A stretch of DNA of 64,000 bases, from NCBI GenBank assembly GCA_023150615.1, contig JAKLKO010000004.1:1-64000 (forward strand). The letters are read 5' to 3'. The position numbers were made by a program, and so were the translations under genes. Positions 38,456 to 49,915 of the stretch are shown here, piece after piece. Under the pieces are notes generated by a model. That model ran no database searches. It was not told where the DNA came from and saw only the letters and a program-made list of their open reading frames with translations. Position 1 is the first letter of the stretch; each line of letters begins with the position of its first letter. Source of the stretch: Phycisphaerae bacterium (GTDB lineage Bacteria; Planctomycetota; Phycisphaerae; UBA1845; UTPLA1).

Positions 38456-38722
38456 ATGGTTGCTCTTGCGCGCCGATCCGCATTCGCGTTCTCGATGACG
38501 GCCGCGGTCTGGCTGGCCGGACTTGCCTCCGCGCGTCCCGGCTCCGCGCAGATCATCGTGGTTGACCGGCCCCCGTCGTTCGGCGGCGGCCCCGCACGGC
38601 CGAAACGGCAATGGAGTTCGCAGATTCTCCGAAATCCGAGCATTTCGACTGTAAGGTTTCGCCGCGTTTCGGGTCTACAGGGTAGGAGGAAGGCCGCGGT
38701 GGCGTGGGAGGGCTTGCCGTGA
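38456..38722 (+). pseudogene. Truncated paralogue of the PEP-CTERM family
   Basis: 88 residues. The first 33 (VALARRSAFAFSMTAAVWLA and on to the AQ cleavage site) are almost identical to the start of the gene at 39643. The next 15 residues (QIIVVDRPPSFGGGP) match the mature start of the 38719 protein. The family domain is then missing and the reading continues as unrelated Arg-rich sequence. A GGGAGG site is kept before the ATG. It is the 5' relic of a duplicated gene and overlaps the start of the next gene by four bases. Confidence 0.65.
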
Positions 38723-39429
38723 AACGTCGTCCTCTGATCCTCTTCGCGGCCCTCGCGGTCTCGCTTGCCGGTCTTGTCGCCGCGCGCAACACGAATGCCC
38801 AGATCATCGTCGATCATCAACCGACGCAAGCCGGTGGCCCGGGCTCGGATACCCAGTACGTCAACATGTTCGGCTTCGAAACGTGGGCGCAGGTCGCGGA
38901 CGACTTCGAACTGAGCGCGCCGGCGACAGCCCATCGACTGATCTGGTACGCCTTCTACGACCGCGACAATCCGCCGAGCACGGAGACCTTTCGGGTCCGG
39001 CTGTACGGGGCACGCCCCGGCGACGGCCTGCCGGACGACGGGAACATCGTGTACGAGCAGTTCTTCCTCGATCCAACACGGGTTGCGACCGGGCGGATTG
39101 TGTTCGTCAGTGTCGATCCCCGCGAATTCCGCTTCGAGATCGATCTGCCGGCGCCCCTGGCCCTTGAAGCCAATTTGCCATACTGGCTTGAAATCGTCCA
39201 GATCGGCGACATCGCCACGGCGCACCGCTGGGAGTACGCCTCCGCTGGACGCACAGGTTTTGCATACAAGCAGCCGGGATTCCCCGATTGGACTCATTCG
39301 GTCATTGGCGCTGACTTGGCGTTTCAACTCTTGGCCATCCCCGAACCAAGCACGTTGTTCTCGGGAGGACTTCTGTCATGCCTGTATTTATCGAAACGTC
39401 GCCGGTCGCGCGTGGCGCGGCGTGACTGA
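38719..39429 (+). CDS. PEP-CTERM exported protein, paralogue 1
   Basis: 236 residues from the GTG at 38719, with GGGAGG 7 bases upstream. The signal peptide is about 1-26 (ending NTNAQ). The mature domain shares its architecture with the protein at 39643: DDFELSAPATAHRLIWYAFY, ETFRVRLYG, YEQFFLDPTRVATGR, YWLEIVQIGD. The C-terminus is IPEPST, a hydrophobic patch and KRRRSR, a PEP-CTERM signal. The role is surface or extracellular; the mature domain is an unrecognised beta-sandwich-like family. Confidence 0.8.
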   Translation: MKRRPLILFAALAVSLAGLVAARNTNAQIIVDHQPTQAGGPGSDTQYVNMFGFETWAQVADDFELSAPATAHRLIWYAFYDRDNPPSTETFRVRLYGARPGDGLPDDGNIVYEQFFLDPTRVATGRIVFVSVDPREFRFEIDLPAPLALEANLPYWLEIVQIGDIATAHRWEYASAGRTGFAYKQPGFPDWTHSVIGADLAFQLLAIPEPSTLFSGGLLSCLYLSKRRRSRVARRD

Positions 39430-39642: not shown

Positions 39643-40359
39643 ATGGTTGCTCCTGCGCGCCGATCTGCTTTCGCGCTCTCGATGACGGCCGCGGTCTGGC
39701 TTGCCGGACTTGCCGCCGCGCGTCCCGCGACCGCGCAGGACGTGCTCCTGCACCGCCAATTGCCGAATCGGCTACACGGATTCTACGGCGATACCGCCTT
39801 CTACGATGACTTTGGCACACTGCGCTCGCAGATCGTCGCCGATCGCTTCCGTCTCAGCGCCGCTAATACGACACACCGCGTCGTCTTTTGGGCGTTCTAT
39901 GGAAATATCTACGAAGACCTTGATCCGGTGCCGCCAACGGTGGAGACGATCCGCGTGCGATTCTACGTCAACGCCGGCGGCGTACCGGGCGAGCTGCGCT
40001 ACGAGGAGGAGTTCCTGAACCCGCCGCGGGTCTTCACGGGGTTTACTGTTTCGGCCGACCCCAGGCGTAAGGAATACCGCTACGACGTGACGCTGTCGGC
40101 CGGGTTCCCGGTTGCGGCGAACACGGACTTCTGGCTCGAGGTCTCGCAGGTCGGCGATCCGTTCAGCACGTTTCGCTGGGAGACCTCAAGCGGCGGTGAG
40201 CTTGCAGTCCAAGCTCCCATGGGCAACCCGTGGACTCTGATTAGTCCGGGTCAGTTGGCCTACGAATTGTGGACACCCGAGCCGACCACGGGCGCTCTGG
40301 GCGTCTTGGCTTGGATGATTGTCGCGCGGCGCACACGGCGCCGCCGGCGCGGTCGATAG
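39643..40359 (+). CDS. PEP-CTERM exported protein, paralogue 2
   Basis: 238 residues; the ATG at 39643 has GGGAGG upstream. The signal peptide is shared with the truncated copy at 38456. The mature part parallels paralogue 1 (DRFRLSAANTTHRVVFWAFY, ETIRVRFYV, YEEEFLNPPRVFTGF, FWLEVSQVGD). It ends in PEPTTGALGVLAWMIVARR and a basic tail. The sequence just upstream (about 39540-39605) is strikingly AT-rich (ATTATTATCATC...GTATAT) and probably holds the promoter. It is probably sorted by an exosortase-like system. Confidence 0.82.
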   Translation: MVAPARRSAFALSMTAAVWLAGLAAARPATAQDVLLHRQLPNRLHGFYGDTAFYDDFGTLRSQIVADRFRLSAANTTHRVVFWAFYGNIYEDLDPVPPTVETIRVRFYVNAGGVPGELRYEEEFLNPPRVFTGFTVSADPRRKEYRYDVTLSAGFPVAANTDFWLEVSQVGDPFSTFRWETSSGGELAVQAPMGNPWTLISPGQLAYELWTPEPTTGALGVLAWMIVARRTRRRRRGR

Positions 40360-40447
40360 ATTCGTGATCTGTTGAAAAAGGTCTGATTTGCAGCTCCGCG
40401 CCGAGTCCGCGCGCCGCCAAAGTGCCACGCCGAAGGAGGTGCGCACC

Positions 40448-43003
40448 ATGTACAACCACGTCACGCCACGAACCCTGACCATCGCAATCGCGCTACTCGG
40501 ACTCGCCGTGTCCGGGGCCTACGCCCAATGCCCCGACGCGGACCCGCCGCAGGGCATTGTCGAGTTTCGCGTCGATGTCGGCGTGCCGGCAGGCCTCGAC
40601 GCGTCGATTGCGATGGATGGCCGGGGACGCTTTGTCGTCGGCTACGAGGAACAGCTGGGGTCACCCCCGCAGCAGCACGACGTCCGCGTCAAGCGCTACC
40701 GCGCCGATGGCACGCCCTGCGAGGCCGGCGCGCCCGCGATCCTCTCGACAGAGTATCTCTGCCAGAGCATCTCGCACGAGACGTCGAACTACGGCGTCTC
40801 GCTGGCGGTCCGTTCTGCCGCAGACGCGAACATCGTCGCGACGTGGACCAGCGGTCTGGCATCCAGTCCTAATTCCTCGTGGCGGCTCGAGCAGCTCTGG
40901 GCATTCGATGATCCGTATCCCGCGCCGGTCGGGCCGCCGCCGCCGTGGGCGACCGGTTGCGGCGCGTTCGGCGACCTCTCCTACAACTCGGCCGGCGTGG
41001 GCGTGGTGTCGAACACCGTTCGCACCTCCGTCGCGTGGGTCAGCGAGATTCCGGACGATCAGGGTCTGCTGACGTGGATCGGCACGCAGTCGTATCAGAC
41101 CCCGACCTTGTTGCGCACGTGTTCCTACCCGGATACCCTCTGCTATTCGGATGACTGGGCGCCCTGCCTCGCGGTGCGGGACGACTCCCGCGCGGCCCTC
41201 GCCTGGGCGGAGCCGTTGTTCAACACGACATTCCAGCCGCCATTTGACATTCGCGTTGCGCAGTTCTCACAAGACGGAACAACCCTTGGACCTACAGGTG
41301 CCGCAGGATTGCAGGCGAATCCCGTCGATGAGGACCCATTCTTGTCCCAGCTCTCCCCCGCCCTTGCCTTCCGCTCCGACAGGCTGGCCGTCGTCTGGCG
41401 TGGACCTGAAAAGCTCCTCTGCCCTCGATCGCGCGAGCACATCTACCTCCGCCTCTTCCGCTGGGGCGGCGACGACAGCCCGCCGACCGATCCCCAGCCC
41501 CTGACCGACGAGATCATCGTCGACAGCGATCCTTACTTTCAAGTCGCCGGTCTGGTCGACGCCAACCCCTCCGTGGCCATCACGCTCGACGAAAACGATG
41601 ACAAGCTCATCGTCGTCTGGAACACCCGAAACCCCATGGGCACGCCCCTCGAACTGGCCGACGATGTCAACGAGATCCACGGCCAGTACTTCCACCTCGA
41701 CGGCACCCGCATCGGCGGCGAGTTCCTCGTCACCGAACAGGTCGGCCGGCTGGCCCGCTCCGGTCAGCACACGGTCGTCTTCGGAAGTGCCGGCCAGGTG
41801 GCGATCGCCTTCACCGCCGGCCAGACGCCAACTGATACCGGTGTGTACGTCACACTCCTGCCGCCCGGTTACGAGAACGAAGTCCCCGCCCTCTGCATCC
41901 CCGGCGACATCAACGGCGATGGCGCCATCAACGGCCTCGACATCCAGCCCTTCGTCAACATCTTCACCGGCACGGTCATGCCCGACCGTCGCGAATCCTG
42001 CGCCATGGACATCGACCGCTCGGGGTCGATCAACGCCGTGGACTGGGTGCTGTTCATTTACCTCCTGCTCCACCTGCCGCCGCCGGAGGCTGATTGCAAC
42101 GGCAACTGTCGGCTCGATTGGATCGACGTGATCGGCTACGGGTCTGCGGATTGCAACGGCGACCTGATCCCCGATGAATGCCAGCTTTGCAATGACTGCC
42201 CCGGCAATCCCCTCTGTCTCGACTGCGACAACGATGGCATCCTGGACCCGTGCGAAGAGGCACGCGGCCCGATCCAGTCCGATTGCAACAATAACGGCAT
42301 CGACGATGCCGAGGACCTCGCCCTAGGCACCAGCGAAGACTGCAACGACAACGACTACCCCGACGAGTGCGAGCCGGATTGCAACTACAACGCCGTCCCC
42401 GATGGCTGCGACATCACCGAGGGCACCAGCGAGGACTGCGACGGCAATGGCACGCCCGATGAGTGCGAGTTCGATTGCAACGAGAACGGCATCCCCGATG
42501 CGTGCGACGTGCTCGGCGGCACGAGTGAGGATTGCAACGCCAACACGCTCCCGGATGAGTGCGACATCGACCTCTACCAGAGCCTCGATTGCAACGAGAA
42601 CCGCGTGCCGGACGAGTGCGACATCGCCCTGGGCACGAGCGCGGACGAAGATGAGAACGGCGTCCTCGATGAGTGCGAGGGCGAGCAGCTCCTCGGCGGC
42701 GGGGAGTCGGGCGAAGGGTCCGCGGCCTCCGGTGCGGGCGAATCCGTCCCGGCCGACGGCTCCGAGGATGGCTCCTCGAGCGGTGCTGATGGTGGTTCAT
42801 CGCTGGGCGAGGGTGCGGACGGCGACGCATCCGGAACCGATGTTGCTGGAGATGATCCGTCACTAACGGGTGGCGCGTCGTTCGACGAACGCCTTGCCGC
42901 CTTCGAGGCCTGGATCATCGAGCAGGACTTCACCGGCCTGTCGGTCCCCGAGCAGATGCGCCGCATTAAGCGCAAGATGCTCGAACTCGACCTCTGGCCG
43001 TAA
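40448..43003 (+). CDS. Large secreted protein with dockerin-like module and DCNxNGIPDECD repeats
   Basis: 851 residues; the ATG has GGAGG 9 bases upstream. The signal peptide ends near AYAQ. Residues 30-475 form a beta-rich domain with several Cys. A dockerin-like module follows (PGDINGDGAINGLDIQPF, then MDIDRSGSINAVDW), then seven or so repeats of about 20 residues built on DCNxNGIPDECDI..GTSED, with calcium-loop-like Asp/Asn and paired Cys. A Gly/Ser/Glu-rich linker (about 740-800) and a helical C-terminus (EQMRRIKRKMLELDLWP) close the chain. The repeats resemble thrombospondin type 3 loops. It is probably a surface or adhesive protein. Confidence 0.85.
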   Translation: MYNHVTPRTLTIAIALLGLAVSGAYAQCPDADPPQGIVEFRVDVGVPAGLDASIAMDGRGRFVVGYEEQLGSPPQQHDVRVKRYRADGTPCEAGAPAILSTEYLCQSISHETSNYGVSLAVRSAADANIVATWTSGLASSPNSSWRLEQLWAFDDPYPAPVGPPPPWATGCGAFGDLSYNSAGVGVVSNTVRTSVAWVSEIPDDQGLLTWIGTQSYQTPTLLRTCSYPDTLCYSDDWAPCLAVRDDSRAALAWAEPLFNTTFQPPFDIRVAQFSQDGTTLGPTGAAGLQANPVDEDPFLSQLSPALAFRSDRLAVVWRGPEKLLCPRSREHIYLRLFRWGGDDSPPTDPQPLTDEIIVDSDPYFQVAGLVDANPSVAITLDENDDKLIVVWNTRNPMGTPLELADDVNEIHGQYFHLDGTRIGGEFLVTEQVGRLARSGQHTVVFGSAGQVAIAFTAGQTPTDTGVYVTLLPPGYENEVPALCIPGDINGDGAINGLDIQPFVNIFTGTVMPDRRESCAMDIDRSGSINAVDWVLFIYLLLHLPPPEADCNGNCRLDWIDVIGYGSADCNGDLIPDECQLCNDCPGNPLCLDCDNDGILDPCEEARGPIQSDCNNNGIDDAEDLALGTSEDCNDNDYPDECEPDCNYNAVPDGCDITEGTSEDCDGNGTPDECEFDCNENGIPDACDVLGGTSEDCNANTLPDECDIDLYQSLDCNENRVPDECDIALGTSADEDENGVLDECEGEQLLGGGESGEGSAASGAGESVPADGSEDGSSSGADGGSSLGEGADGDASGTDVAGDDPSLTGGASFDERLAAFEAWIIEQDFTGLSVPEQMRRIKRKMLELDLWP

Positions 43004-43163: not shown

Positions 43164-44012
43164 ATGAGCTATTCCGGCAGGCCGGCCGAGTCGTTCGAGT
43201 TCAAGAAGATCCTCTATCGAAAGGAGAACGGCCGGGCGTACGTGACGTTCAACCGCCCCGAGGTGCTCAACGCCGTCGATGGCGAGACGCTGGTCGAGCT
43301 GAACGCGGCATTTCAGGATGCGTCGTGGGATGACGGCGTGGCCGTGCTGGTTCTGACCGGGGCGGGCGATCGTGCGTTCTGCACCGGGGCGGACGTGAAG
43401 GAGCAGGCCGAGGAGTTTGTCGGCCGGCCGGGAGCGTACTGGAAGTGGATGGGCCTTTTCGTCGAGGTGCATGAGCGGCTACGGAACCTCGGGAAGCCGA
43501 CGATTGCGCGGCTGAACGGCATGGTGGTGGGCGGGGGCAACGAGTTCAACCTGTCGTGCGACCTGGCGATCGCGGCCGAGCACGTGACGATCCGGCACGT
43601 GGGCGCTGCGCGGGGCAGCGTGGCGGCGGCGGGGGCGACGCAGTTTCTGCCGCTGCTGCTGGGCGAGCGCCGCGCGCGGGAGATGTTGATGCTGTGCGAG
43701 CCGATCGACGCGCGCAAGGCGCTGGATTGGGGCCTCGTCAACCAGGTGGTGCCGCTGGCGCAGCTCGACGCGGCCGTGGGGCACATGGCCGACAAGCTGG
43801 TGGCCAAGCTGCCGGAGTGCATCCGGTACACGAAGCAGCAGCTCAACTTCTGGCGCGACCTGTCGTGGCACCTGACGATCGGACACGCGCGCGACTGGTT
43901 GAGCATCCACAACCTGTCGCCCGAGGTGGCCGAGGGGATGCGGGCGTTCGTGGAAAAACGGCCGGTAGACTACGACCGAGTCCGATCGAACGAAACGCAT
44001 CGGGAGGAATAG
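43164..44012 (+). CDS. Crotonase-fold enzyme, MenB-like
   Basis: 282 residues; the ATG at 43164 has GAGGAGG 6 bases upstream. The crotonase oxyanion-hole segments FCTGADVKEQAEEF and MVVGGGNEFNLSCDLAIAAE are present, so the first catalytic Glu (NEF) is kept. The second catalytic region reads HVGAARGSVAAAGATQFLP, where hydratases have PExxxGxxPGxGGTQ; the second Glu is Gly. This pattern and REMLMLCEPIDARKALDWGL recall dihydroxynaphthoyl-CoA synthase (MenB) and related ring-forming or ring-opening enzymes. It starts the CoA-ester cluster, one base before the next gene. Confidence 0.88.
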   Translation: MSYSGRPAESFEFKKILYRKENGRAYVTFNRPEVLNAVDGETLVELNAAFQDASWDDGVAVLVLTGAGDRAFCTGADVKEQAEEFVGRPGAYWKWMGLFVEVHERLRNLGKPTIARLNGMVVGGGNEFNLSCDLAIAAEHVTIRHVGAARGSVAAAGATQFLPLLLGERRAREMLMLCEPIDARKALDWGLVNQVVPLAQLDAAVGHMADKLVAKLPECIRYTKQQLNFWRDLSWHLTIGHARDWLSIHNLSPEVAEGMRAFVEKRPVDYDRVRSNETHREE

Positions 44013-44013
44013 G

Positions 44014-44787
44014 ATGTCGGAATCGCTGCTACATTCGAGCGTGGAGGAGCGCGTCGCGGTTGTTCGGCTGAAGCGGCCGAAGGTGCTCAATGCGCTGTCG
44101 CTCGAGATGATGGCGCAGCTCGCGGACGTGCTCGAGCGGCTCGATTCCGATCCGGACGTCCGCTGCATCGTATTGACCGGCGATGAGCGGGCCTTCGCCG
44201 CCGGCGCCGACATCAACGACATGGCCGATGCGTCGGTCGCGACGATGTACGAGCGGAACCAGTTCGCGCGCTGGGAGCGGATCAAGCGCATCCGCACGCC
44301 GATCATCGCGGCCGTCAGCGGCTACTGCCTCGGCGGCGGTTGCGAGCTGGCGATGCACTGCGACATCATCATCGCGTCCGAGACGGCGCGGTTCGCGCAG
44401 CCGGAGATCAACATCGGCGTGATGCCGGGCGCGGGCGGGACGCAGCGTCTGACGCGGGCGCTGGGCAAGTTCCGGGCGATGGAGTTGATCCTGACCGGGC
44501 GGCAGATGACGGCGCGCGAGGCCTACGACGCGGGTCTGGTGACGCGCGTCGTGCCGGTCGAGATCTACCTCGACGAGGCGGTGAAGCTGGCGCGGGAGAT
44601 CGGGCAGAAGGCGCCATTGGCCGTTCGGCTCGCGAAGGAGGCGGTGCTGAAGGCGTGGGAGACGTCGCTGTCGGAGGGGTTGGAGTACGAGCGGAAGTTG
44701 TTCTATCTCCTGTTCGGCACGGAGGATCAGCGCGAAGGGATGAAGGCCTTCCTCGAGAAGCGCCCGGCCGCTTATCGGGGTCGTTGA
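44014..44787 (+). CDS. Enoyl-CoA hydratase (PaaF-like)
   Basis: 257 residues with both catalytic glutamates: GGGCELAMHCDIIIAS and QPEINIGVMPGAGGTQR. The oxyanion-hole segment is FAAGADINDM. This is the classic crotonase layout, so trans-enoyl-CoA hydration is expected. Sequence pattern and neighbours fit the PaaF role (2,3-dehydroadipyl-CoA hydratase), but short-chain enoyl-CoA hydratase is equally possible. AGGAGG precedes the ATG. Its start lies one base after the previous stop, so the two crotonases are co-transcribed. Confidence 0.93.
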   Translation: MSESLLHSSVEERVAVVRLKRPKVLNALSLEMMAQLADVLERLDSDPDVRCIVLTGDERAFAAGADINDMADASVATMYERNQFARWERIKRIRTPIIAAVSGYCLGGGCELAMHCDIIIASETARFAQPEINIGVMPGAGGTQRLTRALGKFRAMELILTGRQMTAREAYDAGLVTRVVPVEIYLDEAVKLAREIGQKAPLAVRLAKEAVLKAWETSLSEGLEYERKLFYLLFGTEDQREGMKAFLEKRPAAYRGR

Positions 44788-44836
44788 ACCTCTCCGGTGT
44801 ATGATGAGCCACACTGATACGGGCGGGCCGAAATCC

Positions 44837-45532
44837 ATGAAGCGAACGATTCGACTTGCGGCGTCGATCGCGGGTCTGGCCGGTACGATTGTCCTGGCCG
44901 GCCCGCCGACGACCATCATCAACTTCGATACGTATCCGGATGGCAGCGCCGTGCAACCCACGGACGCGTTTACAACGCAGTATTCGACCGTGGGCGTCGA
45001 ATTCAACGGCCCCGGTCCGTCGGGAAACTCGTGCTCCATCTCGCCACCCAACCACGCGTACGCCAAACGGATCGTGGCCAGCTTTGTCGATCCGTGCACG
45101 GGCGTCGCGTCGGTCACGAGCTACGCGGGCACGGCACAGGACTCGTGCTGGGTTCCGGGCGAGGGAATCGACATGTTCGCCTACGACCGCGACGGGAACC
45201 AGATCGGGCACGAGTTCAACGCGGGCGGCGGCCATTTCACCGCGTTTTCCTTTCCGCAACCGGTCATCGCACGTCTTGACATGTATTGCATTCTGCAGGG
45301 CATCGACAATCTCGCGTTCATCGCGCCCGTTCCGGTGCTCCGGGGCGATCTGAACTGCGACGGCGCGGTCACGTCGTCCGATGTCGGACCGTTCGTTCTG
45401 GCGTTAATCGACCCGTCGGGCTACGCCGGCGCGTTCCCGTCGTGCGACATTCGCCATGCGGACATGAACTGCGACCGACGCGTGGATGGGCTGGACATTC
45501 AGGGCTATATCGACGCCATCTTCCCTCCCTGA
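44837..45532 (+). CDS. Small secreted protein with dockerin-like tail
   Basis: About 231 residues from the ATG at 44837, with a signal peptide (about 1-22). The first 160 residues form a beta-rich domain with NFDTYPDGSAVQPTDAF and an ITxxF-like core, resembling exported PEP-CTERM or choice-of-anchor domains. The tail is dockerin-like (RGDLNCDGAVTSSD, then HADMNCDRRVDGLDIQGY). No Shine-Dalgarno site is clear. An exported structural protein gene inside a run of cytoplasmic beta-oxidation-type genes is unexpected. It may be an insertion rather than part of the pathway. Confidence 0.75.
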   Translation: MKRTIRLAASIAGLAGTIVLAGPPTTIINFDTYPDGSAVQPTDAFTTQYSTVGVEFNGPGPSGNSCSISPPNHAYAKRIVASFVDPCTGVASVTSYAGTAQDSCWVPGEGIDMFAYDRDGNQIGHEFNAGGGHFTAFSFPQPVIARLDMYCILQGIDNLAFIAPVPVLRGDLNCDGAVTSSDVGPFVLALIDPSGYAGAFPSCDIRHADMNCDRRVDGLDIQGYIDAIFPP

Positions 45533-45584: not shown

Positions 45585-46373
45585 ATGGAGACCCTTCTTA
45601 TCGGCGACGCCGCGGGCGTCCGTACGATTACCATCAACCGCCCGGACGCGATGAACGCGGTGGACGAGCGCGTCACGAGCGAACTCCAGGACGCGCTCAA
45701 GCAGACCGAGCGCGACCGCTTCATCCGCTGCCTTGTCCTGACTGGCGCCGGCCGGGCGTTCTGTGCGGGCCAGGACCTCAAGAGCGTGCAGGAGCGCACG
45801 GCCGAGGGGCAACCGATCGACTTCGCCGAGACGCTCCGCCGGCGGTATAACCCGATCATCCTCAAGCTTCGGACGGTCGAGATTCCTGTGATCGCGAGCA
45901 TCAACGGTGTGGCGGCCGGTGCGGGCTGGAGCCTGGCGCTGGCGTGCGATCTGCGGATCGCGAGCCGCGCGGCGAAGTTCGTCAGTGCGTTCACGAAGAT
46001 CGGGCTCGTGCCGGATTCGGGCATGACGCTGACGCTGCCGCGCGTGGTGGGGTTGTCGAAGGCGCTGGAGATCGCGTGGCTCGGGGATGCGCTTTCGGCC
46101 GAGGAAGCGCATCGGCTGGGGCTTGTGAACTGGCTGGTGGAGCCGGAAGAACTGGCGAGCCGAACGATGGAACTGGCGCGGCGGCTGGCCGGATCGGCGC
46201 CACGCGGGCTGGGACTGACGAAACGGGCGATGAACGCGGGGATTCTCAATCCGCTGGAGGATCAGCTAAACTACGAAGCCGACCTGCAGGGCATCGCCGG
46301 ACGGACGCAGGATCATCGCGAGGGTGTCGCCGCCTTCATCGAGAAACGGGCCGCGGAGTTCAAAGGTGAATAA
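45585..46373 (+). CDS. paaG: PaaG-like enoyl-CoA isomerase/hydratase
   Basis: 262 residues from the ATG at 45585. The crotonase segments are FCAGQDLKSVQ and GVAAGAGWSLALACDL, followed by SAFTKIGLVPDSGMTLTLPR. The LVPD aspartate and the loss of the hydratase Glu pair are the hallmarks of PaaG (2-(1,2-epoxy-1,2-dihydrophenyl)acetyl-CoA isomerase) and related delta3,delta2-enoyl-CoA isomerases. The PaaG assignment is by these motifs and by paaF/H/J-type neighbours. The ring epoxidase (paaABCDE) and paaZ are not in the window. Confidence 0.87.
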   Translation: METLLIGDAAGVRTITINRPDAMNAVDERVTSELQDALKQTERDRFIRCLVLTGAGRAFCAGQDLKSVQERTAEGQPIDFAETLRRRYNPIILKLRTVEIPVIASINGVAAGAGWSLALACDLRIASRAAKFVSAFTKIGLVPDSGMTLTLPRVVGLSKALEIAWLGDALSAEEAHRLGLVNWLVEPEELASRTMELARRLAGSAPRGLGLTKRAMNAGILNPLEDQLNYEADLQGIAGRTQDHREGVAAFIEKRAAEFKGE

Positions 46374-47655
46374 CGAGAGCGTGGGGCAAGTGACGACCGA
46401 GCGGATCGTCGGTGTGATCGGTGCGGGCACGATGGGCGCGGGGATCGCGCACATCGCGGCGCAGTCGGGCTTCGTCGTTGAGACGCTGGACAGCAGTCCG
46501 GACGTCGTGAGGAAGGCGTACGACGGGATCCGCGAGCGCGTCGATTCGCAGGTGCAGAAGGGCCGGCTGCCGCAGCACGAGCGCGATGCGATCGTTGGGC
46601 GTCTGCGGGTGGCGGAAGGCTTCGGCTGCCTGAAGGGCGCGGAGCTGGTGATCGAGGCTGCGCCGGAGGACCTGGCACTCAAGCGAAAGGTGCTGGCGGA
46701 GGCGGAGGGCGTGCTGGACAACGGCGCGGTGCTGGCGACGAACACCTCGTCGCTTTCGATCGCGAAGCTGTCGGAGGGGCTGCGCCGGCCCGAGCGGTTC
46801 ATCGGCATCCATTTCTTCAACCCGGCGCCGGTGATGAACCTGACGGAGCTGATCCGCGGTCCGCAGACGAGCGATCACACGCTGACGCTCGCCGTTGCGT
46901 TCTCGAACGCGCTGGGCAAGACACCGATCAAGGTCAAGGACAGTCCGGGCTTCGTGGTCAACCGCGTCGCGCGGCCGTTCTACCTGGAGGCGCTGTCGCT
47001 GCTGGAGTCGGGTTTTGCGGACGTGCGGACCATCGATGCGGCGATGCGCGAAGTGGGCGGCTATCGCATGGGGCCGTTTGAGCTGCTCGACCTGATCGGC
47101 CTCGACGTGAACCTGGCCGTGACGACGTCGGTCTACGAGGGATTCAATCGTCCGGCGCGTTTCGCACCGAGCGCAATCCAGAAGCGGCTGGTCGAACAGG
47201 GCCGGCTGGGCCGCAAGACGGGTCGAGGTTTCTACGACTACTCCTCGAATCCGCCGGCGATCGCGTTCGAGACGTCGGCGCGGTCGGCGGATGCGTGGAC
47301 GCCGGGTGCGGCGTTTGCGCAATTCGCGAACGTGCTCGGCAAGCCGGTGGATCGCGCGGCGTACATCTACGCGCGGATCGTCGCTGCGGTGATCAATGAG
47401 GCAGCGCGAGCGGCCGAGACGATCGCGCTGCCGCGCGATGTCGATCTGGGCGCGAAGCTGGGGCTGAACTTCCCCGAGGGGCCGATGGAGCTGGCCGATT
47501 TTGCGGGGTTGGATGTCGTGTTGAAGCTGATGCAGGAGCTGCACGCCAGCGACGCGGCCGGGCGGTACGAGCCAGCGCCGCTGCTGATTCAGCGTGTGCA
47601 GGAGGGCAAGTTGGGGGAGAAAAGCGCCTGCGGGTTCCTGCGGCATTCGTTGTGA
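46366..47655 (+). CDS. paaH: 3-hydroxyacyl-CoA dehydrogenase (PaaH-like)
   Basis: 429 residues from the GTG at 46366 (GGAG 7 bases upstream), overlapping the paaG-like gene by 8 bases. An NAD-binding Rossmann motif GVIGAGTMGAGIAHIAA starts at about 14. The catalytic-His segment FIGIHFFNPAPVM and PGFVVNRVARPF follow, and two 3HCDH C-terminal domains are present (residues 190-285 and 330-425). The two-domain, 430-residue form is more like PaaH/PaaC than short FadB-type enzymes. It should oxidise a 3-hydroxyacyl-CoA such as 3-hydroxyadipyl-CoA. Confidence 0.9.
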   Translation: MNNESVGQVTTERIVGVIGAGTMGAGIAHIAAQSGFVVETLDSSPDVVRKAYDGIRERVDSQVQKGRLPQHERDAIVGRLRVAEGFGCLKGAELVIEAAPEDLALKRKVLAEAEGVLDNGAVLATNTSSLSIAKLSEGLRRPERFIGIHFFNPAPVMNLTELIRGPQTSDHTLTLAVAFSNALGKTPIKVKDSPGFVVNRVARPFYLEALSLLESGFADVRTIDAAMREVGGYRMGPFELLDLIGLDVNLAVTTSVYEGFNRPARFAPSAIQKRLVEQGRLGRKTGRGFYDYSSNPPAIAFETSARSADAWTPGAAFAQFANVLGKPVDRAAYIYARIVAAVINEAARAAETIALPRDVDLGAKLGLNFPEGPMELADFAGLDVVLKLMQELHASDAAGRYEPAPLLIQRVQEGKLGEKSACGFLRHSL

Positions 47656-47813: not shown

Positions 47814-49019
47814 ATGCGTTGCGCTGCCATTGTCGAGTGCCTTCGGACGCCGATCGGCCGGTATCGCGGCGCGCTGACGGGCGTGCGTCCGGACGACATG
47901 GCGGCGCACGTCATCCGCGCGCTGGTTGAGCGGACGGGGATCGATCCCGCGGCGATCGACGACGTGTACTGGGGTGCGGCGAACCAGGCGGGCGAGGACA
48001 ATCGCAACGCGGCGCGGATGGCCGTGCTGCTGGCGGGACTGCCGGAGACGGTGCCAGGCTGCACGGTGAATCGGCTGTGCGCGAGCGGGTTGGAGGCGGT
48101 CGCGCTGGCGGCTCGGCTGATCGAGGCCGGGCACGGCGACGTGTTCATCGCCGGTGGAGCGGAGTCGATGAGCCGCGCGCCGCTCGTGCTGCCCAAGCCG
48201 GAGGAGGCCTGGGTCCGCGGCAACCAGACGCTTTACGACACGACGCTGGGCTGGCGGATGACGAATCCGCGACTAGCGGCGAAATACCACCCGTACTCGA
48301 TGGGCGAGACGGCGGAGAACGTCGCGGAGAAGTACCGTCTGACGCGCGAGGATCAGGACCGCTTCGCGCTGGCGAGTCAGCAGAAGTGCGCGGCGGCGCA
48401 GGCGGCCGGCCGCCCGGCGGAGGAGATCGTGCCGATCGACGTTCCGGCCGAGCGCGGCAAGACGGTGTCGTTCGCGGTCGATGAACATCCGCGGGGAGAC
48501 ACGACGCTGGAGGGGCTGGCCAAGCTCAAGCCGGCGTTTCGCGAGGGCGGGACGGTCACGGCGGGCAACAGCAGCGGATTGAACGACGGCGCGGCAGCGC
48601 TGCTGGTGGTCGAGGTCGCGACAGCGAATCGGATGGGGCTCCGGCCGCTGGCGTATTGCGGCCCGTCGGCCAGCGCGGGCGTGGACCCGGGCTGCATGGG
48701 CTTGGGGCCGATCCCGGCGACGCGCAAGGCGCTGGCGCGGGCGGGATGGTCGATCGCCGATCTGGGCCTGATCGAGCTGAACGAGGCGTTTGCGAGCCAG
48801 TCGCTGGCGTGCATTCGCGAGTTGGGCCTGCCGGCGGAGCGCGTGAACGTCAACGGCGGGGCAATTGCGCTCGGGCATCCGCTGGGGTGCAGCGGGGCGC
48901 GTCTGGCGACGACCCTGGTTCGCGAGATGGCGCGTCGAGAGGTACGTCGCGGACTGGCGACGCTGTGCATCGGCGTTGGGCAGGGACTGGCGATGCTCTT
49001 TGAGCGCGAGGGGGCGTGA
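47814..49019 (+). CDS. paaJ: Acetyl-CoA acyltransferase / 3-oxoadipyl-CoA thiolase-like
   Basis: 401 residues. It has the thiolase nucleophile [12 protein letters not shown] near residue 90, the active-site His in [16 protein letters not shown] and the general-base Cys in CIGVGQG. The PaaJ/PcaF-type middle [13 protein letters not shown] is present. It should cleave 3-oxoadipyl-CoA or a similar 3-ketoacyl-CoA to acetyl-CoA and a shorter CoA ester. The TGA overlaps the start of the next gene by four bases. A TATACT box lies 7 bases before the ATG without a good -35 partner. Confidence 0.9.
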
Positions 49020-49915
49020 CGATGCGTCCGCGCCGCAAGTTTCCGGCGGCGTGGGCGCTGGCGGCGCTGTGGCCGGCGGTGTGCGGGTGCATTCCGCAGC
49101 GCGTGGCGCTGACGGTGACGGATTCGGCGTCGACGCAGCCGGGCGGCTTTCGCTTCGCGGATTACGCGCTGGCGCTGCGGCGATCGGTCAAGCCTGAGGG
49201 CGTCGATTACCACGCGCTGCTCGCGGACCCTGCGCTGCTCGATCTCTTCCTCGCGCGGCTGGCGTACGACGGCCCGCAGTCGCAACCGGAGCGGTTTGCG
49301 CGTCGCGAGGACCGGCTGGCGTACTGGATCAACGCGTATAACGCGGCCGTGCTGCGCGGAGTTGTACAGCAGTGTGGAAACGGCACCGTGCCGGACTGGC
49401 CGTGGATCAGCCTCGACTACGGCTACCTGTTTCGCGTCGATGGTCGGATGCGCGTGCCGGCGGAGCTGCGGCGCGCGGCGCTGGCGGAGGCGGGCGATGA
49501 CTGGCGGGTGCGGTTCGCGCTGTGCGGCGGACGGCGCGGCGATCCGCCGCTGGCGCGGGAGCCGTTTCAACCCGACGTGCTCGAGTTTCAGATCGACCGG
49601 CAGGTGCGCGACGCTTGGCAGTCGTCGCATTGCACGGTCATCAACCACGGGGACCAGTATCTGCTCCTCAGCGGCGACCTGCTCGAACTGCAATCGCGCC
49701 TGATCGCCGACTTCGAGAAGCGGACCGGGGCCCGCGGGGCGACGATCCTCAACGTGCTGATCGAGCGCGCGACGCGTGAGCACGTCGCCGTGCTCAATTC
49801 GGCGATCGGATACTCGGTGCATCGACTGCCGTTCGACGGGCGCGTGAACCAGGCGCAGACGGCCGGTCAGGCTCCGGGGCTGCTGTCGCGAATCCTGTCG
49901 TCGGTCACGCCCTGA
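49016..49915 (+). CDS. DUF547 lipoprotein
   Basis: 299 residues from the GTG at 49016, or ATG at 49022. The N-terminus has a lipoprotein-type signal ([12 protein letters not shown]). The DUF547 signature is clear: [20 protein letters not shown] near 100, then CALCGG-like and late strand motifs. The biochemical role of DUF547 is not established. The 4-base overlap with the thiolase gene indicates co-translation, though a link to the pathway is unproven. It is convergent with the ACT gene. Confidence 0.85.

Follow-up and report, generated by a model that had tools for sequence, protein, structure and literature searches.

What does a crotonase do that keeps only one of the two catalytic glutamates of ordinary enoyl-CoA hydratases and is encoded beside phenylacetate-type (paa-like) genes? 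We investigated this question for P0001, a gene of a Phycisphaerae bacterium found in a stretch of 64,000 nucleotides, referred to here as the window. Our observations of its family, residue conservation, synteny and co-occurrence with PaaA, together with no PaaZ over cut-off, point to P0001 as a candidate oxepin-CoA ring-opening hydrolase of an aerobic phenylacetyl-CoA pathway that has no PaaZ. In that pathway it would replace the PaaZ hydratase domain, a role that we consider fairly probable from sequence comparison.

The reading frame of P0001 is free of internal stops, and a Shine-Dalgarno-like GAGGAGG lies directly 5' of the ATG. Pfam ECH_1 matches the product at 174 bits, which places it in the crotonase superfamily. 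In an alignment, E127 of the GGGNE motif occupies the first Glu position of ordinary hydratases, and G147, which lies in the segment HVGAARGSVAAAG (residues 145–157), occupies the second. We counted these residues in 76 P0001-type rows drawn from a 106-row set. The Glu plus Gly pattern is a conserved trait and not chance, because E127 and G147 are invariant in all 76 rows and S152 is kept in 75 of them; the first Glu kept and the Gly at the second position, as read from the sequence alone, therefore hold for the clade. An AlphaFold2 model built from 57 sequences has a pLDDT of 90.7, and an earlier structure model, with a pLDDT of 75, was set aside. The best structural match of the model has a Z score of 31.9 and an R.M.S.D. 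of 1.8 over 245 residues, and hydratases, isomerases, MenB, PaaG and 6-oxocamphor hydrolase match at Z scores of 28–32. The predicted structure confirms a crotonase fold, and structural matches do not tell functions apart. No structure named Oah or BamA was among the PDB matches listed, and one may exist elsewhere; by sequence, the best PDB matches among those listed were MenB.

P0001 stands at the head of a paa-like cluster, as proposed by the sequence-only reading, with PaaF-, PaaG-, PaaH- and PaaJ-like genes downstream on the same strand. See Table 1 for all features of the window. The PaaG-like protein and E. coli PaaG have Asp at corresponding positions. The small ORF that interrupts the cluster is not thought to belong to the pathway. 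It is one of two ORFs with dockerin-type matches that flank or interrupt the cluster. Two adjoining paralogous DUF7901-like genes were also observed, as was a DUF547 protein after the thiolase; a DUF547 protein likewise follows PaaJ in another genome (G009, locus L048).

Table 1. Features of the window, with coordinates, strand and supporting observations.
Feature	Position	Strand	Observations
DUF7901-like gene	38704-39429		Under cut-off; paralogous to the adjoining gene
DUF7901-like gene	39643-40359		Paralogous to the adjoining gene
ORF with dockerin-type match	40388-43003		
P0001 crotonase, candidate oxepin-CoA hydrolase	43164..44012	+	282 aa; groups with Oah/BamA-like ring hydrolases
E127 codon, first catalytic Glu kept (GGGNE)	43542..43544	+	Invariant in 76/76 clade members
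G147 codon, replaces second catalytic Glu	43602..43604	+	Invariant in 76/76 clade members
PaaF-like enoyl-CoA hydratase, ordinary two Glu	44014-44787	+	NCBIfam PaaF 327 bits (cut-off 371); PRK05862 348 (cut-off 396); motif
Small ORF between PaaF and PaaG, interrupts cluster	44801-45532	+	Pfam Dockerin_1 22.5 bits, just under cut-off (22.9)
PaaG-like isomerase, probable start 45585	45585..46373	+	TIGR02280 286 bits (cut-off 345); motif
PaaH-like 3-hydroxyacyl-CoA dehydrogenase, probable start 46366	46366..47655	+	TIGR02279 378 bits (cut-off 669); PRK08268 443.5 (cut-off 508)
PaaJ/PcaF-like 3-oxoadipyl-CoA thiolase	47814..49019	+	TIGR02430 547 bits (cut-off 597)
DUF547 protein	49016-49915		Follows the thiolase

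PaaA, B, C and D of this genome are on another contig (C3), accompanied by a TetR regulator and a methylmalonate-semialdehyde-type dehydrogenase, and neither PaaZ nor a MaoC-domain protein was matched over cut-off in the window's genome. As the genome encodes PaaF, G, H and J and no PaaZ was found, two steps lack an enzyme, the opening of oxepin-CoA and the oxidation of the semialdehyde; a ring hydrolase plus an aldehyde dehydrogenase fit them. Three observations in this genome count against P0001 as a PaaZ replacement. PaaABCD are on a different contig from P0001, the aldehyde dehydrogenase beside PaaABCD is of the methylmalonate-semialdehyde type (640 bits, cut-off 448.5), and no PaaK was found over cut-off (best 44 bits).

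The same genome encodes an Oah-like paralog of P0001 on contig C19, which has 384 residues, is 52% identical to P0001 and carries an insert of about 54 residues that P0001 lacks. It belongs to a reductive benzoyl-CoA type cluster (L009, 1292-16612; contig C19 of G000), which this planctomycete carries in addition to the aerobic PaaABCD. The cluster contains a 2-hydroxyglutaryl-CoA-dehydratase-type reductase, an activase, a Dch-like crotonase (Dch is dienoyl-CoA hydratase), a Had-like protein (Had is 6-hydroxycyclohexene-carbonyl-CoA dehydrogenase) and the Oah-like paralog, with a 4-hydroxybenzoyl-CoA-reductase-like protein nearby. The function of this cluster is presumed, as nearly all of its members score under their NCBIfam cut-offs.

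We compared P0001 with the known crotonases that it most resembles. BadI (TIGR03210) is its best NCBIfam match, and P0001 was rejected as BadI, scoring 178.6 bits against a cut-off of 467.6 and falling in a separate clade. BadI, or 2-ketocyclohexanecarboxyl-CoA hydrolase, is a ring hydrolase of similar length and also has Gly at the second position. However, unlike the Glu of P0001, the residue at the E127 position is Val in four of five BadI or BadI-like plasmid proteins, and only the Rhodococcus BadI-like protein has Glu. P0001 is not MenB either (TIGR01929, 170 bits against a cut-off of 342.7). The sequence-only reading had credited MenB with the same Glu plus Gly pattern, which is incorrect, as all three MenB sequences in the alignment have Val at the E127 position. 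Both proteins have a GxxxGS motif; MenB closes a ring, whereas our reading of P0001 is ring opening.

P0001 also resembles Oah/BamA, the 6-oxocyclohex-1-ene-1-carbonyl-CoA hydrolase, which opens its ring by water. P0001 was rejected as a member of this family, scoring 162.4 bits to TIGR03200 (cut-off 464.45) and belonging to a type for which none of 73 named loci has a Dch or Had label. Characterized Oah is represented here by this TIGR03200 score, and all other comparisons are with Oah-like proteins of Dch-Had clusters. P0001 and those proteins have in common the Glu plus Gly-xxx-GS pattern and a C-terminal NFWxDxxWxxTxGHARDWL-like stretch, and the Glu plus Gly pattern is found in all 15 hydrolases of reductive benzoyl-CoA type clusters. 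They differ in setting: the P0001 type is found in paa operons, whereas the Oah/BamA-like proteins are found with Dch and Had.

Members of the P0001 clade are 60–83% identical, and relatives occur in metagenome-assembled genomes (MAGs) labelled Planctomycetota, Chloroflexota, Ignavibacteriota, Bacteroidota and Melainabacteria/Cyanobacteriota, with single others. Our 106-row tree used 106 of 131 rows, leaving out 13 repeated named loci and 12 of 28 Planctomycetota rows; the truncated G004 gene had been omitted from set A1 (28 of 29 kept). The 69-row tree is that set minus seven outgroups and 30 of the 60 named P0001-type rows. The 46 P0001-type rows of the 69-row tree fall together on a single branch (support 100/100), the proteins of Dch-Had clusters join them, and BadI and MenB lie outside. 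The trees place P0001 outside the ordinary enoyl-CoA hydratases, which sustains the sequence-only reading on this point. Holding the three annotated BadI with the P0001 type against the Dch-Had group was rejected (p-AU 3.8e-49). An origin of the P0001 type from within the benzoyl-CoA type, as nested in the 69-row tree, was not upheld by the 106-row tree. There, with distant outgroups, the benzoyl-CoA group lies on one side of a branch (support 89) and the P0001 type needs two changes; a single clade for the benzoyl-CoA group was not rejected (p-AU 0.145). By these trees, the P0001 type would either descend from the Dch-Had group or be its sister.

Next to which genes are the relatives of P0001 found? 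Our named loci are the best 80 of at least 569 and comprise 73 of P0001 type (13 repeats included) and seven of benzoyl-CoA type. Neighbors were labelled by best BLAST matches on ORFs from a simple caller, and some contigs are too short to show neighbors; two PaaK labels, in L068 and L115, are weak (68 bits). At least one paa gene lies on the same strand in 42 of these 73 loci (41 without the weak L115 PaaK), and an epoxidase or ligase gene does so in 24 (23 without it). By gene, the same-strand neighbors in the 73 loci are PaaF in 35, PaaG in 24, PaaH in 12, PaaK in 13 (one weak), PaaA in 8 and a divergent PaaA-like protein in 5. The seven benzoyl-CoA type loci among the best 80 all have Dch and Had, and none has a paa gene. 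Counting against a PaaZ-replacement role, 31 of the 73 P0001-type loci have no same-strand paa gene within the stretch. The same is true of 20 of 28 loci in the Planctomycetota set, the window included (21 without a weak PaaK label), leaving eight with a paa gene (seven without that label).

Several neighborhoods are arranged as operons. The planctomycete G017 (L066) has the order FlK-EthD-P0001-PaaF-PaaG-PaaH-PaaJ-PaaA, with a similar one in L056, and in a distant planctomycete (L197) P0001-PaaF-PaaG, PaaJ and PaaA-PaaC follow one another in this order within 13 kb, interspersed with other ORFs. Five Chloroflexota loci have P0001-ALDH-PaaA-PaaB-PaaC-EthD, where ALDH is an aldehyde dehydrogenase, and PaaD is labelled in three of them. 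In two of the five, the P0001 stop and the ALDH start overlap by four bases, and in two another called ORF separates the genes. If PaaZ were split into two proteins, one would expect such an order, with P0001 and an aldehyde dehydrogenase ahead of PaaABC. PaaK lies within 4 kb of P0001 in 12 loci, the majority of them from Melainabacteria or Cyanobacteriota MAGs; in an Obscuribacter locus, PaaK (581 bits to TIGR02155, cut-off 646) adjoins EthD-P0001-PaaF-PaaG.

Other neighbors were also observed. A small EthD-family protein is encoded close to P0001, on its strand, in 39 of the 73 P0001-type loci of the best 80 (for example, L066, 5629-5949), and an FlK-like thioesterase is a neighbor in eight of those 73 and in seven of the 28 Planctomycetota-set loci. 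P0001 operons of Melainabacteria encode PaaA-like proteins that are divergent, scoring 125 bits (L105, 4406-5158) and 118 bits (L169, 11481-12272) against a cut-off of 280. Lokiarchaeota MAGs (loci L163, L164, L167 and L172) have an Oah-Dch-Had gene set.

We then examined co-occurrence across 61 genomes, the window's own and 60 relatives. A full-length P0001-type gene and PaaA occur together in 29 (counting G016, whose PaaA is a 216-bit fragment under cut-off), P0001 alone in none, PaaA alone in five and neither in 27. A naive Fisher test, which ignores kinship, gives p = 2e-12; within families, p is 0.005 for f4 and 0.045 for f8 and is not significant for f1 and f2. PaaZ over cut-off was found in none of the 61 genomes and in none of 24 chosen named genomes. 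P0001 thus co-occurs and is encoded with the phenylacetyl-CoA epoxidase where PaaZ is missing, with exceptions that count against a PaaZ-replacement role. The 24 chosen named genomes, all with P0001, have PaaA over cut-off in 16, only a divergent PaaA (62–124 bits) in six and no PaaA found in two. At the scale of the phylum (149 genomes), P0001 is in three genomes and PaaA in four, with both in two, one of them the window's; one of the three P0001 genomes (G087) is thus without PaaA and two of the four PaaA genomes are without P0001.

We infer the substrate, the reaction, the role of E127 and the dehydrogenase acting in the window's genome as follows. P0001 would add water at the beta-carbon of oxepin-CoA, in a pocket common to Oah/BamA-type ring hydrolases, and E127 would be the one acid/base residue left of the classical pair. 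The hemiketal would collapse and the C–O bond of the seven-membered ring would break, giving 3-oxo-5,6-dehydrosuberyl-CoA semialdehyde. A separate aldehyde dehydrogenase would oxidize the semialdehyde, and PaaJ, PaaG, PaaF and PaaH would complete the route. OAH of Thauera is described as hydrating both a 1-enoyl-CoA and a ketone; where the beta-carbon bears fluorine, the proposal is that the enzyme adds water at this carbon and that the adduct then collapses to a ketone (PMC5742626). As the beta-carbon of oxepin-CoA bears the ring oxygen, OAH-like addition and collapse would open the ring. The PaaZ hydratase domain, an oxepin-CoA hydrolase, has the same proposed reaction and pathway place as candidate P0001 and, in the available part of PMC7497051, is thought to attack the oxepin-CoA beta-carbon. 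However, it has a hot-dog (MaoC) fold and is fused to a dehydrogenase in E. coli, whereas P0001 is a crotonase.

The sequence-only reading had offered ring closure, ring opening or an unusual hydrolysis in place of plain hydration. Ring opening, as against plain hydration, is the best reading; ring closure has no positive support. We considered closure in the form of a tropone-type condensation because of the FlK-like thioesterase neighbors, and found nothing positive. PaaY clears a dead-end CoA ester (available text of PMC7497051), and by analogy the FlK-like thioesterase may do the same.

A crotonase has been proposed for this step before. Price and others (2022) used fitness data to propose H281DRAFT_04594 as the oxepin-CoA hydrolase of Paraburkholderia, and the available text of their paper describes the ring hydrolase of bacteria with a separate semialdehyde dehydrogenase as not identified or only proposed (PMC9007349). 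In H281DRAFT_04594 the residues corresponding to rat E144 and Q162 are Ser and Met (PMC9007349), whereas P0001 has Glu at the E144 position. By sequence, P0001 is a different crotonase from the type proposed in 2022. The model NF046063 (alternative oxepin-CoA hydrolase, oxepin_alt), which by its name we take to represent H281DRAFT_04594, was not among the best 25 of 72 models for P0001; the 25th scored 120.5 bits, so P0001 scores at most about 120 against a cut-off of 300 and was rejected as this type. A literature search, with most subscription papers outside its reach, found no earlier link of an Oah/BadI-type crotonase to oxepin-CoA.

In the main rival explanation, the oxepin ring is opened by a stand-alone hydratase of the MaoC (hot-dog) type, and P0001 does some other work in the pathway, for instance on a by-product or an isomer. 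The hydratase domain of PaaZ itself has the MaoC fold (PMC7497051, available text), MaoC domains over cut-off occur in 22 of 34 PaaA-positive genomes versus 3 of 27 others, and stand-alone PaaZ-hydratase-like proteins (75–89 bits) that could do the same job occur in seven Chloroflexota genomes. However, the window's genome and 11 other P0001 genomes, including G017 with its full operon, have no MaoC domain over cut-off (incomplete assemblies, 75–99.6% complete). Furthermore, a PaaZ-hydratase-like gene is absent from the P0001-type stretches compared, and the four matches lie in three Lokiarchaeota benzoyl-CoA type loci. Overall, MaoC domains over cut-off are found in 25 of the 61 genomes. The five that have PaaA alone are all among them, which would suit a replacement role for P0001, and so are 17 of the 29 P0001 genomes, which counts against it; the two proportions do not differ significantly (p 0.14). 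We consider this explanation unlikely.

It is quite unlikely that P0001 duplicates PaaF or PaaG as a hydratase or isomerase in the lower, beta-oxidation-like steps. The crotonase fold, with Z scores of 28–32 to many hydratases and isomerases, and the one catalytic Glu kept would suit such a role, but PaaF and PaaG are already in the cluster, the second Glu is missing, and W95, Y222, W230 and W235, which are invariant in the P0001 type, differ from the PaaF and PaaG sequences compared. P0001 could also have kept the reaction of Oah/BamA, acting on 6-oxocyclohex-1-ene-1-carbonyl-CoA or a similar alicyclic ring, with its paa linkage reflecting a mixed aromatic pathway; its closest relatives sit in Dch-Had clusters, and one such cluster is present elsewhere in the window's genome, on another contig. 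That cluster, however, owns an Oah-like protein; Dch or Had labels occur in 0 of the 73 named P0001-type loci (best 80 of at least 569), and a Had-like alcohol dehydrogenase is the only such label in the Planctomycetota set, in one of 28 loci, and is also found in L198 (G087, the genome without PaaA). This makes the Oah/BamA reaction very unlikely. An ordinary enoyl-CoA hydratase with a decayed active site, which general crotonase similarity might suggest, is scarcely credible given that 57 alignment columns are invariant among 57 members (seven of them benzoyl-CoA type) and that the P0001 type forms its separate, fully supported branch.

With P0001 read as an oxepin-CoA hydrolase, its family becomes a concrete ring-opening candidate in Planctomycetota, Chloroflexota, Ignavibacteriota, Bacteroidota and Melainabacteria, known mostly from metagenome-assembled genomes. 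Better annotation would follow, because the best model matches, BadI and MenB, fall far under their cut-offs. We lean, at somewhat better than even chances, toward a wider view in which P0001 is the founding member of a family of crotonase-type oxepin-CoA hydrolases that spans at least five phyla and shares its ancestry with the anaerobic benzoyl-CoA hydrolases. Aerobic hybrid and anaerobic pathways would then open their rings with sister enzymes, and P0001 plus the aldehyde dehydrogenase of Chloroflexota would amount to a split PaaZ. If true, one enzyme lineage would serve both aerobic and oxygen-free ring opening.
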